NCBI GenBank assembly: GCA_010672165.1
Contig: JAAHHN010000051.1
Location: 1-35,039, forward strand
Origin: Spirulina sp. SIO3F2
GTDB lineage: Bacteria > Cyanobacteriota > Cyanobacteriia > Cyanobacteriales > Spirulinaceae
Reading direction: 5' to 3'
DNA: 35,039 nt
Shown here: piece by piece, positions 142 to 16,461 of the stretch
How positions within the stretch are numbered: the stretch's first letter is position 1
How the letters are laid out: the number at the start of each line of letters is the position of its first letter
Position numbers and translations under genes: made by a program
Notes under the pieces: generated by a model
The model's database searches: none
The model's input: the letters and a program-made list of their open reading frames with translations, nothing else
What the model was told of the DNA's origin: nothing

Positions 142-743
142 TCAGTTTGGCAGCCAGTCCGGCCAGTCAAAGAATTGCTCCTCATCATCTTGTGGGACAA
201 ACGTTTGGCGACTTGGGTTTCTGCACTTCCCCAGCTATTTCTCAGCAAATCCTCTATAGAAAAGTGTTCAGAGAGTGGAAGCACCAACTCACGATTGCCA
301 CAGCGGACTTCGGTGAAAAACTGTAGCCGTTGCTTACGGGTTTCAATGGCGCGATCGAGGTCTTCAGCTTCTAGGTCGATTGCCTGTCGTCTTTGCTGTT
401 CAAGGTCAGTAAGATGAGTGAGTAATTTGTGACAGGCTTCCCCCAATAGTTGGGATTTCTTATCAAGTTGACCATCTTGAATGGTTTTCTGTAGTTGAGT
501 GATCTTGGAGTTGCGATCATTGACCTCACAAAATTTGCGATAGAGGTCGTCAAGACTATCCTGACTAGCAAAAGTCTCGATTAATTCATCAGCCAAAACC
601 GCTAGACCTTCTGTTGGATCGCACTGATCAAGATTAATGCCGTCAAATTCATCTTTGATAAACAACGCCAGCTTTTTGGACGTTATGTAGACCTTAGTCA
701 GTGCTTCTCGCAATGCTTTTTTAGTCTGTCCTGTCCATTTCAT
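142..743 (-). pseudogene. EAD1-like domain protein with coiled coil, probable one-base frameshift near its 3' end
   Basis: The ATG at 743-741 opens a frame starting MKWTGQTKKALREALTKVY. Residues 1-85 resemble effector-associated domain 1: a helical adaptor with K/R-A-L-R-x-A-L early, then LADELIETFASQ and LYRKFCEVN. Residues about 90-150 are charged and coiled-coil-like. After about residue 177 the original frame becomes implausible and stays open to the window edge. The frame reached by adding one base (somewhere between about 193 and 235, where there are GGG and CCCC runs) ends in the acidic tail QDDEEQFFDWPDWLPN and a TGA at 144-142, giving about 200 residues. It starts five bases after the small membrane gene's stop, so the two are probably co-transcribed. 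In published conflict systems such domains recruit effectors by EAD-EAD contact. That role here is inferred. The frameshift could also be a sequence error. Confidence 0.7.
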
Positions 744-748
744 CGCTA

Positions 749-1159
749 CTACTTTGGTGCAGGTAATAGAGGAATTGCTGACGTGTAAAAGAGCAGTACC
801 AAGGAGCCATAGATGGGTTGATACCAGGACAACTCTGCAAAGGGGCCACCAATGGCAAAAACCCAAATCGCAAAGGAGACACAGGAGAGCACAACTTGCC
901 GCCACGCTGTGGGTTTGCCTGCTTCTGCGGTCTGCTTACGTATCCAGAAGAAAGAGAAAACTAAACCTGCCACAAAGAGCAACCAGAGCAATCCCAAGCG
1001 CGGCACAGTATCATTCTGACTTTGAATTAAGCCACTGCCCGTTAACCACAAACCCACGACATCGGCTGGAATGTATTTGAGCAAGCGGTCAAAATAACCA
1101 TCAATGCTTGCCTCCGTCCCCCCCGACTCATAGGCTGTCCATACAATCCGACGACTCAT
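749..1159 (-). CDS. small three-helix membrane protein paired with the EAD1-like gene
   Basis: This 136-residue protein starts MSRRIVWTAYESGGTEASI. It has a motif region around YIPADVVGLWL (residues 29-39) and hydrophobic segments at about 56-73, 87-106 and 115-131, with an RK-rich linker after the first. I do not recognise a named family. A second, internally deleted copy with the same N-terminus (MGRRIVWTAYKS) and the same C-terminus (VLLFFTSAI) precedes the EAD1-like/GAF gene at 11738-11848, so the pairing with EAD1-like genes is repeated. A membrane-acting effector or anchor for the EAD1 partner is a reasonable inference but is not shown. Confidence 0.75.
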   Translation of the reverse strand: MSRRIVWTAYESGGTEASIDGYFDRLLKYIPADVVGLWLTGSGLIQSQNDTVPRLGLLWLLFVAGLVFSFFWIRKQTAEAGKPTAWRQVVLSCVSFAIWVFAIGGPFAELSWYQPIYGSLVLLFYTSAIPLLPAPK

Positions 1160-1600
1160 CCTTGAAACTCCTTAGGCTAAAACACTCACAATTTCGGTAA
1201 TAATCGGCTGAAGTAGAATTCTCTCCCGTAGACGCTCAAACCGATTTGAAACGGTTGCATCTCTGTAGAGAGTAAATCATCAGTCTATGCATTTTAGCTA
1301 TCTCGCTCTCTAAATCCCCCAATTCTGGGGTTTGGATGTGCCAAACTACTCGTATACTCAACCCACACCTAGGTACAGAATGGGTTGCAGGGCCGGGAGA
1401 CCCATCACCTAGCCGTCTCGGTTGCCAGATGGTGGTGTCGTGACACGCCTTAAGTGATGCATTAGATCACAAAGAGAATAAAACCTCATAACACTTGCCC
1501 TTGTTGGGTTTCGTGCCTCAGCTACCATCTATCTCATCTTTTTAGCTGTGTCACGACACTACAAAACTGACTAACAACAAGCCCTAGATACAGTTGGCGT
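1160..1600. other. intergenic region between two minus-strand genes
   Basis: No convincing coding frame is seen. It must hold the promoter for the membrane protein/EAD1-like pair at its left side and the 3' end region of the SLH gene at its right. It contains a hairpin-like pair, CCGGGAGAC and GTCTCGG, around 1393-1420, and the inverted repeat listed separately. Confidence 0.5.
1434..1559. repeat. inverted pair GTGTCGTGACAC / GTGTCACGACAC, MITE-like
   Basis: A 12-base element at about 1434-1445 is repeated in reverse complement at about 1548-1559, and each arm is itself nearly palindromic. The 126-base unit has no coding frame. The arrangement suggests the ends of a small non-autonomous element. 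No clear target duplication was found. Confidence 0.4.
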
Positions 1601-9413: not shown

Positions 9414-10259
9414 CTATCCCTTATCCCATAAGGTTTCTGGAAACAACTGATGACGCGCTCTCAATGGAGCAGCAACTTTGCGCTTAATTTTTTGCTTCAG
9501 GGTCTGCCAACCTTGCATTGTGCACAGCATACGAGCACGCTGCTTGGTTTGAGGCGAGACAACTTTTCTGGCGAGGGCAACTGCTTGATTCATCACCGGG
9601 ACTTGGTCAAACCATGAGGGAGAAACATCACTGGCTGAACTGCGCTGATTCGCCACAGACGGTATAGCAATTAAGCGATTGATCTCAGGGTGCTGCCATT
9701 TAAACACATTGAGTGCGCCATCGAGCGACATGGGACCGTAGAGGCGATCGCCAACCGGCCCAACAAGCAAAGCTTCCAAAAAATCAATCAGCATCTGAAT
9801 GCTTTTGCCATTAACGGCATAGCAGTGAGAACCAATTTTCTCACCCGAGAAAGAACGGAGTATCGGGAGACTTTTTCCGTAATTTGGCTCATCTCCATGA
9901 CCACAGTAGCCAAACTGAACGAATGACCAGTCCTTAGACATTAATTGCTCAAGTAAATACGCCTCATGTTGTTTGAATTCTGGTGCGAACTCCAAATCAT
10001 CTTCTACAATCAAAACATTACGTAAGCCCTGTGCTTGAGCTTCTTTCAGGATTTCTAAATGGCTCAAAAAGCAGCCTTTTGCGCCAATTGACTTAAATGG
10101 AAATGCTTCTTTGGGTTGAATGGCTGAAAATAATTCAACCTTGCCGACTTGCAAGGGCATCCCTGCTTTTTGAAGTTCTTTCGCAATTTCATGACGGCGA
10201 TCAACTCGTTTGGGCAAGTTAATAACATAAGCCCGCTCAAAAAACTCACTAAACTTCAT
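9414..10259 (-). CDS. GT25-family glycosyltransferase
   Basis: The ATG at 10259 (MKFSEFFERAYVINLPKRVD) is preferred over 10289 because YVINL with an R-D-R helix is the standard GT25 N-terminus. The product is then 281 residues. Members of this family (such as Lex2/LpsA) add galactose or glucose to lipooligosaccharide. Visible features are CFLSHLEIL, the DXD-type metal site LIVEDDLEF, and SLDGAL. The C-terminal basic segment (KQKIKRKVAAPLRARH) is unlike the core and may touch membrane. Neighbours give no polysaccharide cluster, so the acceptor is unknown. The gene is AT-richer than rlmN next to it, which fits acquisition. Confidence 0.85.
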   Translation of the reverse strand: MKFSEFFERAYVINLPKRVDRRHEIAKELQKAGMPLQVGKVELFSAIQPKEAFPFKSIGAKGCFLSHLEILKEAQAQGLRNVLIVEDDLEFAPEFKQHEAYLLEQLMSKDWSFVQFGYCGHGDEPNYGKSLPILRSFSGEKIGSHCYAVNGKSIQMLIDFLEALLVGPVGDRLYGPMSLDGALNVFKWQHPEINRLIAIPSVANQRSSASDVSPSWFDQVPVMNQAVALARKVVSPQTKQRARMLCTMQGWQTLKQKIKRKVAAPLRARHQLFPETLWDKG

Positions 10260-10669
10260 CACTGCTCCTTTATGGTGTCTACAAATCAACCATAATCGCC
10301 TGGGAATTAGAGTTACAAGATCACTTTAGTGCTAATTTGATCGCCAAAATAATGAGTTTATTTTGATCTTGCTAAAATTATTGGCATCAGCTACTTATCA
10401 GTATTGCAAACATATAGGAATGATCAAATGAGTATTTTATGTACGACTAATGACGTATTGAAAACAAATATTTAACCGTGATTTGGCGAGGATGGACTAA
10501 TGATGTTAGTTTTCGTTTAGTGTGCATACCCTCCACTTCAGTGAGTAGTCATCAGTAAACAGTTATCAATCAGTGTAGAGCACGATCGCAGCCATACCGA
10601 GATAGGAAAAAGTGATAAGGTCAATTCAAGACCCCTTGTAACAGTTGACCCAAAACGCATATCAGCTGA
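10260..10669. other. AT-rich region between divergent glycosyltransferase and EAD1-like operon
   Basis: No coding frame is credible. The stretch is visibly AT-rich (for example around 10330-10480) and must contain the two divergent promoters. No specific operator or terminator could be assigned. Confidence 0.5.
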
Positions 10670-11727
10670 ATGTTAAAGCTCACCAGCGGCGACCGCCAAC
10701 AACTCCGCACAGCCATAACCTCCAGCTTTCGCAAATATTCGCATCTTAGAATGTTTGTCTCGGATTCTTTTGAAGACGTGCGGCTCAATGATATCGCCAC
10801 ATCACAAGCGCTCAAGGTTGCGGCGGATGATCTAATCGAGCACTTTGAAGAACAGGGTACAGTCTCAGCACTGATTTTGGCGCTCTACAAAGAGCGGCCG
10901 CGCAACCCAGAGATTCAACGTTGCTGGGGCGATTGCAGGACTTTTTGCAAAGCAGACTGCTACTGGATGATGAATTAGGGATTGGCGCTAATGTATCGCT
11001 GGATTGGACAGAGCCTTGGGATGATGTCCAGCTCGAAGCCTTTTTGCCCCGTCAGTTTGCTTATGAAGCAGATGTTGGGGCACTCTATCGGGGTCTTCAG
11101 CTGGCTAATGCCGTCTGTAAGATTTCGTTTACAGATAGCGATCACACCGGAACGGGCATCCTCATTGCGCCTGACCTGGTTCTGACCAACTATCATGTCT
11201 TGAGTCCTCAGCTCGTTGAGGAGAAAACCCAACTAGAAGCGCTGGCCCAGTCCCTACAATTTGAATTTGGCTATATTAGTCAAGAAAACACGGACTCAGT
11301 CCCAACTGATTGTTTCAATACGGCTGCCAGTGAGCCCGTTTTAGCCTGGAGTCCAGCTCCGCAATTAGACTATGTATTGTTGCGGGTGGCAGGGGCAATC
11401 GTGCAAGCTGATTACCTTAAGCCCGTTTCGATGTCATCAGTTCGTGAGCCCAGTCCCCGAACGAGTTTAAACTTGCTTCAGCATCCAGCCGGCCAGACGC
11501 TGAAAGTTTCCCTGAGCACCAATGGTGTAGTGCAAACTGATCCACAGCGGGGACGAATTTGGTATGTTAATCGTACCCAAGGGGGTTCAAGTGGTTCACC
11601 CTGTTTTACAGGGGATTGGGATTTCGTGGCATTACACCATGCCTCGGTCCCACGAGGATTTGGTAGCCTGCGAGAAGGAATTCTACTTCAGTCAATTGTT
11701 GCTGAAATTGAGAGTTTTCTAGCGTAA
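10670..11727 (+). pseudogene. EAD1-like domain fused to a trypsin-like serine protease, split by a frameshift
   Basis: The ATG at 10670 starts MLKLTSGDRQQLRTAITSSF, an EAD1-like adaptor whose last part reads LILALYKERPRNPEIQR. At about 10920 the frame must shift by one base: inserting one base gives NPEIQR-LLGRLQDFLQSRL and leads into the protease frame (10921-11727). The protease has GTGILIAPDLVLTNYHVL (histidine), LDYVLLRV (aspartate) and GGSSGSPCF (serine, second S), a complete triad at residues 92, 150 and 224 of that frame. No ATG and no clear ribosome site starts the second frame, only TTG, so a true fusion of about 350 residues is the best reading. Alternatives are a real break or a sequence error. 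EAD-bearing proteases are known effectors in conflict systems. Activity here is inferred. Confidence 0.75.
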
Positions 11728-11737
11728 GGAGTCACAG

Positions 11738-11848
11738 ATGGGTCGTAGGATAGTCTGGACAGCGTATAAATCAGAGAGGATGGAGACAAGCATAGTGCTA
11801 CTGTTCTTCACTTCAGCAATTTCCCCATTACCCACGCCAAAGCAGTAA
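11738..11848 (+). pseudogene. remnant of the small membrane protein gene, missing about 101 internal codons
   Basis: The ATG at 11738 gives 36 residues. They read MGRRIVWTAYKSERMETS, then IVLLFFTSAISPLPTPKQ. The first 18 match residues 1-18, and the rest matches residues 120-136, of the membrane protein at 749-1159. The deletion keeps frame and removes the first two membrane helices. As in that locus, the stop is followed by the two bases CG and then the ATG of an EAD1-like gene. It starts 11 bases after the protease stop. It could be a dead remnant or a short peptide. Confidence 0.75.
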
Positions 11849-11850
11849 CG

Positions 11851-14583
11851 ATGGAATGGAATGGTCAACAAAAAGAAAAGCTACGTGATACGTTAGTTGC
11901 GATTTACAGCAGTTCCGCTAAGTTGCGGCAGTTCGTTTCTTTTAAACTCGACAGAAACCTCAATGAAATAGCCCCGACATCAGATATTGGCGAACAAGCC
12001 TTTGAACTGATTGAAACAGCCTGTGGTGAGGGTTGGATTGATCAGCTATACCAAGAATTATGCAACGCTAATAAACGCATGCCTACCGTTATTCGGCTAC
12101 AGAAAATCATTCAGAATGGTAGTCAGAATGGCAGCCCTGCGACGATAGAGAAGACGGCTGAACTGGTTACTCAAACTGTATCTGAGATATCCCAAGAGAT
12201 TTTACAGTTAGAATTGGAGATCAAAAAAACTGTAGATCAACTCAGGAAAGAAAGAAGTGAGATTATTCGAGAAATTGTCAACATTACAGAAGTAGAGTGG
12301 TTAAATCAATTAAGAAACCAATATAAAAAAGCTCTGGGAGAAATCACTCATCATATTGGCACTTGGATGAATGCCGAACGAACAACAATTTATTTCCTCA
12401 ATAATGATCGAGATCAACTGTGGTCTATTTTTGCTCAAGGTGATGAAGAGGTAAATCGCCCTATTGAGATTAGTTTAAGAATTGGAGATGGTATTGCTGG
12501 AAGAGTTGCCCAACATAAAAATGTAATCAATATCTCGTATCCTGCCCGTGACTGTGAGCATTCAGAAGAGATCTTAAAACAAGATGAGCGTAATAACTTC
12601 AAAACCCATACTTTATTAACTATACCTATTAAGAATGATACGGAAGAAACATTTGCAGTTATTCAATTCGTGAACCGCTGGCGAACTGGCAATGATGAGA
12701 CAATTGAGCCTAACGAAAAAAATTATCAGCGATACAGTCGTAAGGGTTTTACAGATGAAGACAAACAGAACTTTATAAAGTTAGTTAAAAAAACATCAAT
12801 TCAGCGAATGTTGGAGGGCTTACAAGACTACTACAACCTCGCTCAGCAACTTAAAGGGAGTATAAAATCGACTCAAGCCGCTCAAGCGCTCAGTCAGAGT
12901 AGTGATGACTTTAGTGAAGCTCTACAGCAAATCATGACGGCAGCGAAAGACCTGATGAATGCAGACCGTAGTACGCTGTGGATTCTTGATCATACGGAAC
13001 AGAAACTGTGGAGCCAAATCCCAGATAGAGAGGGCAAGCTACGAGAGATTAGTATCAAAGTAGACCAAGGTTATGCAGGCAAAGTGGCGAGAGAGGTTAT
13101 TAATACAGGGGAATATTATGCCCTAAATATTCCGTTTGATGTATATAAAAATCCTTATTCTGAGACTGCTCGAAAATCTGATAAAGCTAATAATTATCGT
13201 ACCTGTAGTTTGCTCTGTATGCCAGTGCTCACCCATGATGAAAAATCTGGCAATCAGCGATTGATTGGTGTAACGCAACTGCTTAATAAGTTTCAGGAGG
13301 GTTTCTCAAGCTGGACTCCCAGTGGCAACAAAATATATGAACAGATTCCTCCTTGCTTTGAAACCAGTTTTACACAAGATGATGAGCGCCGGATGAGAGC
13401 GTTTAATGCCCAGGTCGCTGTTGTTTTACAAGGTGTGCAAAGATCAACGATTGAACCCAAAGCCATTTTATTTAGGCTACTCGAGAGTGCAGCCCTGATT
13501 GTAAGCGAATACTTGCCATCAGAATCAGCAATTATTTACTTATTTAATGAGCGAAATCATCTTCTTTGGACAATTATCAAGACAAACCAGAGTAATCAAG
13601 ATGTATTTGAAACGCTTGAGATCCCAGTCGGGCAAGGTGATATTGGAGAGGTCGCAGTAACAGGCCAGGATAAGTTTATTCATCAGAATCCTGGACGCGC
13701 CAGACGTGGAACTTACGACAAGAGCAAATTGATTTTTCCTTTGTTTGATAATAATCAGCGATTACTAGCAGTCGTCGAGGCTCGTCATAAGCGGATAGTC
13801 TCCCAAACAGTGAAAGAAACAACCGAATATATCGGGTTTAGTCAGAGTGATAAGGAGATTTTCTTTGGCCGCTTCTTTAAGTCTTTTCTTGAACAAATCC
13901 ATAGCTGTCATGCATTTTATGAAACTTTAAATATTCAAATCTATGCATCACAGCTAATCAATGCTCAACGACAAGTCCTCAGTTCTGGTCGTGAGCATTA
14001 TATGGAAAAGGTTATGGAATCAGCTCGCACATTAGTGAATGCTGATCGCTGTACCTTGTGGCGACTTAGCACAGATCAGACGATGTTAATAGCGGATGGA
14101 TACGTAGATGGAACGGGCTTAAAAGCGCTGAATCTCCAGGTGGGAATTGGGGATGGATACGTTGGTCAAGCGGCACAGATTATTTTGGCTAAAAAATCCC
14201 ACTCGGCGAATGAATCTTATTTCCTAAAGTTTGATTGTGATATTTATTGCCTGGAGCATGAGCAGGGTAAGACTGCCCGAGAAACGGATAGAGAGACAGG
14301 ATATCGTACCTGTAGTCTCCTCTGCATGCCGATTCTCAATCGGGAAAAGGAGTTGCTCGGAATTCTCCAGCTTTTAAATAAGTTAAATAGGACGGCTGAA
14401 ACCTTAGATGATTATACTCAATATATTGAGTCAGGTGAGATTCCTGCTTGTTTTGATGCAAGTTTTGATGATCTAGATATCCAACAGTTGGATCAGTTTA
14501 ACCAAATTGTGGGCGCACTTATTTATGAAGAAGTGACATTGGCAGAAGTCCGGAGTAAAACTGAGGAGCTAAAACAACTATAA
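11851..14583 (+). CDS. EAD1-like protein with coiled coil and four GAF domains
   Basis: The 910-residue protein begins MEWNGQQKEKLRDTLVAIYS. Residues 1-90 are EAD1-like (matching the neighbour at 743). Residues about 100-150 are coiled coil (EISQEILQLELEIKK). Then come GAF-like domains at about 150-315, 345-530, 535-690 and 710-895. GAF2 and GAF4 share RTCSLLCMP and a QLLNK segment. GAF2 carries a recognisable NKFDE pattern (N479, K480, F507, D510/D511, E512), a motif linked to cyclic nucleotide binding in other GAF proteins. GAF4 has NKFD but not the final E. No kinase, GGDEF or cyclase domain follows: the protein ends shortly after GAF4 (TEELKQL), nine bases before an IS-type inverted repeat, so a lost C-terminus is possible. 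A sensor that recruits effectors through EAD1 is inferred. Confidence 0.8.
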   Translation: MEWNGQQKEKLRDTLVAIYSSSAKLRQFVSFKLDRNLNEIAPTSDIGEQAFELIETACGEGWIDQLYQELCNANKRMPTVIRLQKIIQNGSQNGSPATIEKTAELVTQTVSEISQEILQLELEIKKTVDQLRKERSEIIREIVNITEVEWLNQLRNQYKKALGEITHHIGTWMNAERTTIYFLNNDRDQLWSIFAQGDEEVNRPIEISLRIGDGIAGRVAQHKNVINISYPARDCEHSEEILKQDERNNFKTHTLLTIPIKNDTEETFAVIQFVNRWRTGNDETIEPNEKNYQRYSRKGFTDEDKQNFIKLVKKTSIQRMLEGLQDYYNLAQQLKGSIKSTQAAQALSQSSDDFSEALQQIMTAAKDLMNADRSTLWILDHTEQKLWSQIPDREGKLREISIKVDQGYAGKVAREVINTGEYYALNIPFDVYKNPYSETARKSDKANNYRTCSLLCMPVLTHDEKSGNQRLIGVTQLLNKFQEGFSSWTPSGNKIYEQIPPCFETSFTQDDERRMRAFNAQVAVVLQGVQRSTIEPKAILFRLLESAALIVSEYLPSESAIIYLFNERNHLLWTIIKTNQSNQDVFETLEIPVGQGDIGEVAVTGQDKFIHQNPGRARRGTYDKSKLIFPLFDNNQRLLAVVEARHKRIVSQTVKETTEYIGFSQSDKEIFFGRFFKSFLEQIHSCHAFYETLNIQIYASQLINAQRQVLSSGREHYMEKVMESARTLVNADRCTLWRLSTDQTMLIADGYVDGTGLKALNLQVGIGDGYVGQAAQIILAKKSHSANESYFLKFDCDIYCLEHEQGKTARETDRETGYRTCSLLCMPILNREKELLGILQLLNKLNRTAETLDDYTQYIESGEIPACFDASFDDLDIQQLDQFNQIVGALIYEEVTLAEVRSKTEELKQL

Positions 14584-14592
14584 AGATCATAC

Positions 14593-15007
14593 CTAAGTAC
14601 AGGACAAAAAAAGGAGAGGATTGAAGGAGAAATTAAAGTTTGAATCAAAGCCAGAAGTGGAATTAGAGAAAAAACGGCGGAGAATATCGAAACCATAACG
14701 GAAAAGACTACGAGCACGACGCCCATGCGTCTTGAGCTTGATGGGCTTTTGAGCATGACGCCATAAACCCGCCTTCATCGCCCAAACAAAAGCAATCGCT
14801 AGTAGAGCCAAGAGTTTAGAAAGACGAGCAGCATCAGTAAAGTGGGTAGACTCAAGGCAAAAGCCCCGTGTCTTGAGCGCCCCAAAGAGAGTCTCAATAC
14901 CCTAGCGACGGGCATAATCTGAGGCTGCGGTGTGGACAGAGGCATTAGTAATCAGAATCAGAAAGGCATCATCATCTTTCGCTGTTGGTGCGAGATGAGT
15001 GCCGATT
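14593..15007 (-). pseudogene. 3' fragment of an IS4-family transposase
   Basis: The minus-strand frame reads APTAKDDDAFLILITNAS, then DYARR, a TAG at 14904-14902, GIETLFGALKTRGF and KLLALLAIAFVWAM, and ends at 14593. With tryptophan in place of the TAG it matches the IS4 signature Y-x2-R-x3-E-x6-K (YARRWGIETLFGALK). The N-terminal catalytic part is missing and the upstream side continues into unrelated repeat sequence. It is dead. Confidence 0.85.
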
Positions 15008-15858: not shown

Positions 15859-16461
15859 ATGAAGAAAGCAGATATAAACCAAGATCAAGAACATAGATAT
15901 GAACCAAGAGACTGCAACAAAAAGATTGCAGCTAAGTTCTGTACTGGAGTGTTAATTTGTCTCATTGGGGTGGCACTGTGCTCAGCTTGCTTGATCTTGC
16001 TGGTGGTAGCGGTACTGAGAATTCCTCGACCTGATCCAAAGCCATTGCTAGAAACCAAGCGCTGTATTGAATGTTTCATGATAAATGCTAATCTGCGGGA
16101 GGCTGACCTAAAGGAGGCTCATATATATGGGGCCTTTATGTCCAATGCTGATTTGTAAAGGGCTGACCTTCAGAGGGCTTTCATATCAGGAGCTGATTTG
16201 CGGGGAGTTAACCTGAGAGAAGCTGATCTGAGAGGAGCTACACTAAATGGGTCTATTCTGCGGAAGGCTGATCTGAGAGAGGCGAACTTAGACAAGACAG
16301 ATCTGAGTGACACTGACCTGAAGGGGGCTAAGCTAAATGGGGCTAATTTGCAGGAGGCTAACCTGGATAATGCTGAACTGATTCGGGCTGACCTAACTGG
16401 AGCCATCTGGACTGACGGCTCTATGTGTAGCAATAAAAACTGTGACGGAAGAGCCTACTAG
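15859..16461 (+). pseudogene. membrane-anchored pentapeptide-repeat protein with an internal stop
   Basis: The frame from 15859 has a basic N-terminus, a hydrophobic segment at about residues 30-53 (GVLICLIGVALCSACLILL), then KRCIECFMINANLREADLKEA. A TAA at 16156-16158 lies exactly between A(D/N)Lxx units (ADL-stop-RADLQRA). The same frame then continues for 100 codons of A(D/N)LxxA repeats up to GAIWTDGSMCSNKNC, the usual family end. CAA (Gln) to TAA by one substitution would explain it. Pentapeptide repeats form a right-handed beta helix. Their role here is unknown. The gene is therefore probably inactive, or makes a truncated protein. Confidence 0.85.

Follow-up and report, generated by a model that had tools for sequence, protein, structure and literature searches.

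What is a 36-codon open reading frame (11738..11848, forward strand) doing between a trypsin-like protease gene and a gene for an EAD1-GAF protein in Spirulina sp. SIO3F2? The window analysed here, which contains it, is a complete contig of 35,039 bases (C401) from a draft genome of 7.3 Mb (453 contigs, 96.5% complete). An earlier note, made on the sequence of the window, read the small frame as what an in-frame internal deletion had left of a membrane-protein gene, and suggested that a toxic or costly function had been lost while expression of the downstream gene was kept. Two questions follow: whether the frame is really the relic of a longer gene, and whether its reading frame was preserved by selection or by chance. 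Here we compare the locus with the other copies in the same genome and with its relatives, and we find a fairly ordinary gene remnant.

Results

The small frame is the relic of a longer gene

Within the window, tblastn aligned residues 1-19 of the remnant with positions 1159-1103 (68% identity, E 3.8e-5) and residues 18-35 with positions 805-752 (72%, E 1.1e-4). Both matches are the two ends of one reverse-strand ORF of 136 aa (749..1159), an intact paralogue of the lost gene. Compared with this paralogue the remnant lacks 303 nt, that is 101 codons (residues 19-119), and it consists of residues 1-18 joined to residues 120-136, plus one extra codon. The in-frame loss of about 101 codons, with both ends in register, is thus confirmed. 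The earlier note had these residues kept exactly in register; they are indeed aligned in register, and 24 of the 35 aligned residues are identical (by eye). The frame runs open from its start through the junction over 36 codons, but its stop does not correspond to that of the paralogue: AAG TAG TAG CG ATG in the 749-1159 copy stands against AAG CAG TAA CG ATG in the remnant, and this change accounts for the extra codon.

The similarity is not restricted to the frame. At the DNA level, 10605-11793 is 76% identical to a stretch of contig C20 in the same genome, while 11678-11793 and 11796-11874 match the other copy in the window (79% and 76%, respectively). The match therefore continues upstream into the protease gene and downstream into the first EAD1 codons, beyond both ends of the remnant, which shows homology and not chance. 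The family profile detects only residues 1-19 of the remnant, with an E value of 0.27, so that it is the close paralogues and the DNA that establish the homology. The deletion junction lies at 11791..11796 (forward strand), where several equivalent breakpoints span several bases. On inspection, ATTG is present at both edges of the lost stretch in the C20 copy, and a deletion of the 303 nt between short imperfect direct repeats is plausible.

The lost gene belongs to a four-helix membrane-protein family

Two intact copies of the gene, 83% identical, are found in the genome, at 749-1159 and on contig C20. Among 195 genomes of the order, 11, including this one, match the membrane protein at E<=0.001; in one of these (G140) the match is marginal and in two (G011 and G042) it is partial or carries a stop. 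In a scan of named genomes we found 28 loci (L055-L082), among them Cyanobacteria, the Alphaproteobacteria Jiella, Rhodovarius and Rhizobium, and also Thiomargarita, Chloroflexi, Gemmatimonadetes, Angelobacter and Rhodothermales. The closest relatives of the membrane protein are cyanobacterial. The protein is 130-144 aa long at 26 of the 28 loci, and the other two encode 110 aa (matching from residue 19) and 81 aa (interrupted).

We aligned 26 members, namely 25 of the 28 loci together with P0001, leaving out the two short ones and the second Mastigocoleus copy (L070). This alignment has 15 invariant columns and a core D-x-Y-x-D...KYIP. The AlphaFold2 model of the intact protein (mean pLDDT 78.9) has long helices at residues 32-47, 54-77, 86-103 and 115-131, and from this model and its hydropathy the lost protein is predicted to be a membrane protein. 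The deletion removed 13 of the 15 invariant residues and, of the four predicted long helices, the first three and the beginning of the last, and the retained N-terminus corresponds to a low-confidence tail of the model. The remnant shares with the family the homology of its retained ends and its place after a trypsin-like protease gene; at 36 aa it has neither the family length of 130-144 aa, nor the four helices, nor the D-x-Y-x-D...KYIP core. It descends from the four-helix membrane-protein family and is not a working member of it.

Neither intact copy matched anything above the curated Pfam cut-off, or anything in NCBIfam. When all 26 members were searched, single members or pairs matched eight unrelated Pfam families (E 0.0005-0.0075), three NCBIfam families (E 0.0003-0.0044, one of them named putative four-helix membrane protein) and one PADLOC family (E 0.0076), and no Pfam, NCBIfam or PADLOC family was common to more than two members. 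A Foldseek search of the PDB found nothing at E<=0.001, the best match having an E value of 0.19. With no consistent family and no PDB fold match, we claim no function for the membrane protein. Its neighbourhood is more constant: a trypsin-like protease match ends at most 0.3 kb upstream of the membrane gene at 22 of the 28 loci, as judged on the forward strand with a protease HMM that was itself built from these upstream ORFs. The other six loci have no match to this HMM, L060 because sequence is lacking there.

The neighbouring genes are partly broken

The gene upstream of the remnant encoded an EAD1-trypsin protease and now consists of two ORFs in different frames. The EAD1 half lies at 10670..10978 (forward strand; Pfam EAD1 4.6e-11, and alignment with the C20 copy). 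The Trypsin_2 half, at 10921..11727 (forward strand; Pfam Trypsin_2 9.6e-17), covers the whole length of the model and is in another frame after the loss of one base near 10920, a frameshift that is not in a homopolymer. A 3-nt gap that also separates this protease from the C20 copy is ordinary divergence and was not counted as a lesion. The position between protease and EAD1/GAF genes described in the earlier note is therefore retained, but with the protease split into EAD1 and trypsin ORFs.

The protease stop overlaps an AAGGAG motif (11725..11734, forward strand), a candidate ribosome-binding-like site judged from its sequence, shortly before the remnant ATG. Only 2 nt after the remnant stop begins the gene for a 910-aa protein with an EAD1 domain and four GAF stretches (11851..14583, forward strand; Pfam EAD1 1.2e-12, GAF 1.8e-32). 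At the DNA level, the start of this gene aligns with that of EAD1-VMAP in the first window copy, suggesting that the effector part of the third gene was exchanged within an ancestral layout common to both. The closest larger ORFs that we tested are a glycosyltransferase ORF (9414-10289) and one with pentapeptide repeats (15859-16158). Short broken reverse-strand ORFs at 14590-15000 may be a transposase relic. A scan of 10300-14800 gave six promoter-like sites (9.7 in shuffles) and four terminator-like sites (3.7 in shuffles).

Two further copies of the layout are present in the genome

The genome holds three diverged copies of the protease, membrane protein and EAD1-effector layout. The first copy in the window, on the reverse strand, retains the 3' end of its protease (1160..1221) and, intact, the membrane gene; from its EAD1-VMAP gene (150..743) an out-of-frame internal deletion of about 805 nt has removed the region corresponding to VMAP-C. 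The shifted frame of this EAD1-VMAP gene is open up to the contig end.

The third copy, on contig C20 (242-9486), looks complete. In order, its genes encode an FGE-domain protein, an EAD1-trypsin protease, the membrane protein, EAD1-VMAP-C, a MoxR-like AAA protein, a SAV_2336-N-terminal/FGE protein, Avd and a reverse transcriptase. Pfam supports VMAP-C (9.6e-16) and AAA_5 (1e-9), and the SAV_2336 N-terminal match has an E value of 1.4e-106. Pfam gives no vWA match for this last protein, and the vWA part of the system is presumably what the SAV_2336 N-terminal match represents.

Relatives carry the full-length gene

The earlier note had proposed looking for a full-length gene at this place in related genomes, and such a gene was found: of the 14 strong EAD1-trypsin loci (E<=1e-30, the remnant locus included), 12 adjoin a full-length membrane-protein gene. 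The two exceptions are the remnant itself and one locus (L095) with the first 83 residues only. Three weaker EAD1-trypsin loci (L098-L100, in G160, G084 and G185; E about 1e-23) have no adjoining membrane-protein gene; the gene that comes next is EAD1/VMAP-M1 in two of them, L098 and L100, while L099 was covered on its plus strand. A membrane-protein gene beside EAD1-trypsin proteases is usual, not universal.

The break in L095 is an insertion. Its N-terminal part, and a C-terminal part on another contig, both end in inverted sequence and have a nine-base direct repeat in common (L095/L013 and L016, genome G042); the N-terminal piece is identical over 330 nt in Moorena sp. SS36440bin_2. The membrane-protein gene has thus been broken at least twice independently, by a deletion here and by an insertion in a Moorena genome.

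We searched for the 36-aa peptide in 386 genomes of the phylum (an even sample of the larger group, this genome included) and found no second short form. Besides the copies of its own genome, the search gave three weak matches (G212, G269 and G335; E 0.006-0.07), which we take as chance, since at their loci the best match to the membrane-protein profile has an E value of 0.12 and the best to the protease profile one of 0.46. A separate family of short genes in relatives, which the earlier note had named as the finding that would count against a deletion, was therefore rejected within this sample of 386.

The locus itself is harder to follow. The genus is represented by this genome alone, and in the 12 other genomes of the family the best membrane-protein match (E 0.019) has two stops inside. 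The N-terminal part of EAD1-GAF was found in two other genomes of the 386, at no more than 33% identity, and no membrane-protein gene was present in the loci examined. The full EAD1-GAF protein matches 109 of the 195 genomes (this one included), mostly across the GAF part; the best match, 49%, is in two genomes of the same family, and the N-termini differ (by eye). A scan of the named genomes with EAD1-GAF gave no relative. As these searches for an orthologous locus came back empty, the exact ancestor of the remnant locus is not seen in another genome.

Substitutions on the retained codons hint at relaxed constraint

On the 35 retained codons, three-way parsimony assigned 7 synonymous and 10 nonsynonymous changes to the remnant lineage, and 14 and 4 to the two intact copies together (Fisher p=0.041). 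One of the ten replacements, S2G, also occurs in the outgroup Elainella and could be ancestral; when it is left out, nonsynonymous to synonymous changes are 9:7 versus 4:14 (p=0.076). The sample of 35 codons is small, and at dS near 1 three-way parsimony undercounts synonymous change. By NG86 on the retained columns, dN is 0.163 and dS 0.99 between the remnant and the 749-1159 copy, and 0.066 and 1.08 between the intact pair. The direction of the pairwise dN/dS agrees with an excess of replacements on the remnant lineage, and these figures hint, at marginal statistical strength, at relaxed constraint on the remnant since the deletion. The dN/dS of the remnant against the intact copies is nevertheless well below 1. 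Divergence that mostly arose before the deletion would give such a value, and so would a constraint that still holds in part.

Discussion

We read the remnant as a decaying relic, left by ordinary decay of a redundant and eroding copy of a putative defence operon, and we put the probability of this reading at about 0.7. The ancestral unit would have comprised an EAD1-trypsin protease, the four-helix membrane protein and an EAD1-effector, and is now present as three diverged copies. In the copy at 10670-14583, a deletion of 303 nt, probably between the short imperfect repeats, took away nearly all of the membrane-protein gene and would by chance have fallen in frame, and a one-base loss broke the protease of the same copy, with EAD1-GAF still open. 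Redundancy would be provided by the complete-looking C20 copy. The homology, the size and frame of the deletion, the neighbouring genes and the other lesions are observed; that redundancy is the cause, the order of the events, the repeat-mediated mechanism and the absence of function in the peptide are what we infer.

The state of the neighbouring genes favours decay. Indeed, the protease just upstream is frameshifted, and the sister copy has kept only the 3' end of its protease and suffered an out-of-frame deletion of about 805 nt, the frameshift and the 303-nt deletion both being known from one draft assembly. The loss of a toxic or costly function, as put forward in the earlier note, finds no support here; general decay fits better, given the frameshifted protease, the out-of-frame deletion in the sister copy, the complete-looking C20 system and the hint of relaxed constraint. 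Ordinary bacterial pseudogenes with internal deletions occur in redundant paralogues, and the remnant resembles them in its partial loss, in the lesions of its neighbours and in the intact copy elsewhere. It differs from them in staying an open and well-placed frame of 36 codons. Moreover, pure decay predicts neither the retained AAGGAG site nor the stop 2 nt before the next ATG, and EAD1-GAF, open over 910 codons, shows that the locus is not dead.

These last features could be explained if the deletion had been selected for being in frame. With EAD1-GAF and no longer EAD1-VMAP as the third gene, the membrane protein would then have turned useless or harmful, and translation of EAD1-GAF, an open frame of 910 aa, would need the ribosomes of the small ORF to restart 2 nt on. 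An AAGGAG precedes the small ORF whereas none was seen before EAD1-GAF, and the two are spaced as TAA-CG-ATG. The frame at the junction matters too: with one base dropped there, a stop falls 55 nt upstream, and with two bases dropped the 213 nt that we examined, extending beyond the ATG, contain no stop, so that only an in-frame deletion keeps a stop just before the EAD1-GAF start. The motif, the spacing and these frame effects together make a coupled restart plausible, and selection to keep translation coupled to EAD1-GAF is possible. However, one deletion in three is expected to be in frame in any case. The two copies in the window have three lesions of which the frame is clear, measuring 303 nt, one base and about 805 nt, and one of these is in frame; the loss of the protease front of the first copy, where the frame cannot be judged, is omitted. 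Moreover, the frameshift in the upstream protease means that coupling through the operon is already disturbed. We therefore consider a selected in-frame deletion unlikely, while giving it some weight. A more specific scenario, in which the switch of effector from EAD1-VMAP to EAD1-GAF made the membrane partner a liability, and the in-frame deletion left a 36-codon leader whose sole role would be to feed ribosomes into EAD1-GAF, seems to us quite doubtful.

The deletion and the frameshift might also be absent from the organism, as errors of sequencing or assembly in a draft of 453 contigs, all the more so as two inverted paralogous copies lie on one contig and no second genome of the genus is at hand for comparison. 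Yet over the retained codons the remnant differs from each of the two intact copies at about one base in four (26 and 30 of 105), so it is neither a collapse nor a chimera of them, and the protease frameshift lies outside a homopolymer; we regard such an error as very unlikely. Still more improbable, in our view, is that the deletion created a new functional small membrane peptide. The 36 residues form an open frame behind a ribosome-binding-like site, with a hydrophobic stretch in their second half, but the 19-residue Kyte-Doolittle maximum of this stretch (1.19) is far under the best of the parent (2.38), nearly all the invariant residues are gone, the codons tend to replacement changes, and among the 386 genomes sampled we found no relative that has the gene in this short form. 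The reading that we prefer is still the decay of a redundant copy.

To what kind of system did the copy belong? The C20 unit is likely a retroelement-diversified conflict system. VMAP ternary (vWA-MoxR-VMAP) conflict systems with EAD1-linked effectors and diversity-generating retroelements were described by Kaur et al. 2020 (PMC7159879), and, going by the portions of PMC7159879 and PMC10907252 consulted, the C20 unit fits the retroelement-linked systems of this kind, its vWA part being putative. Its genes include EAD1-trypsin, EAD1-VMAP-C, MoxR-like AAA, SAV_2336-N-terminal/FGE, Avd and reverse transcriptase, and the copy around the remnant is similar in having EAD1-trypsin and EAD1-effector genes. 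On the other hand, neither a MoxR-like ATPase nor a vWA or VMAP-C gene was found at 10670-14583, which holds only the broken EAD1-trypsin gene, the remnant and, as third gene, EAD1-GAF; this region and the nearest larger ORFs were covered by the scan, and the other ORFs of the window by reading.

Pfam holds Trypco models, and none of the eight Pfam families matched by the 26 members (E<=0.01) is one of them. Trypco1 and Trypco2 are small partners that co-occur with trypsin-like peptidases, according to the part of PMC7159879 consulted, and the membrane-protein gene is likewise small and accompanies a trypsin-like protease; the four-helix protein differs in being, by its model and hydropathy, a predicted membrane protein. 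A small four-helix membrane protein is absent from the consulted text of PMC7159879, and it may be drawn in the figures or supplements of that paper, of PMC8195603 or of PMC10907252.

In conclusion, the remnant draws attention to a conserved four-helix membrane protein without a name, encoded after trypsin-like proteases that often carry an EAD1 fusion. The family of this membrane protein is spread over several phyla, in Cyanobacteria, Alphaproteobacteria and other groups. If the membrane protein is the anchor, the substrate or the pore of the protease, which are guesses, natural knock-outs lying beside intact copies make its role testable.
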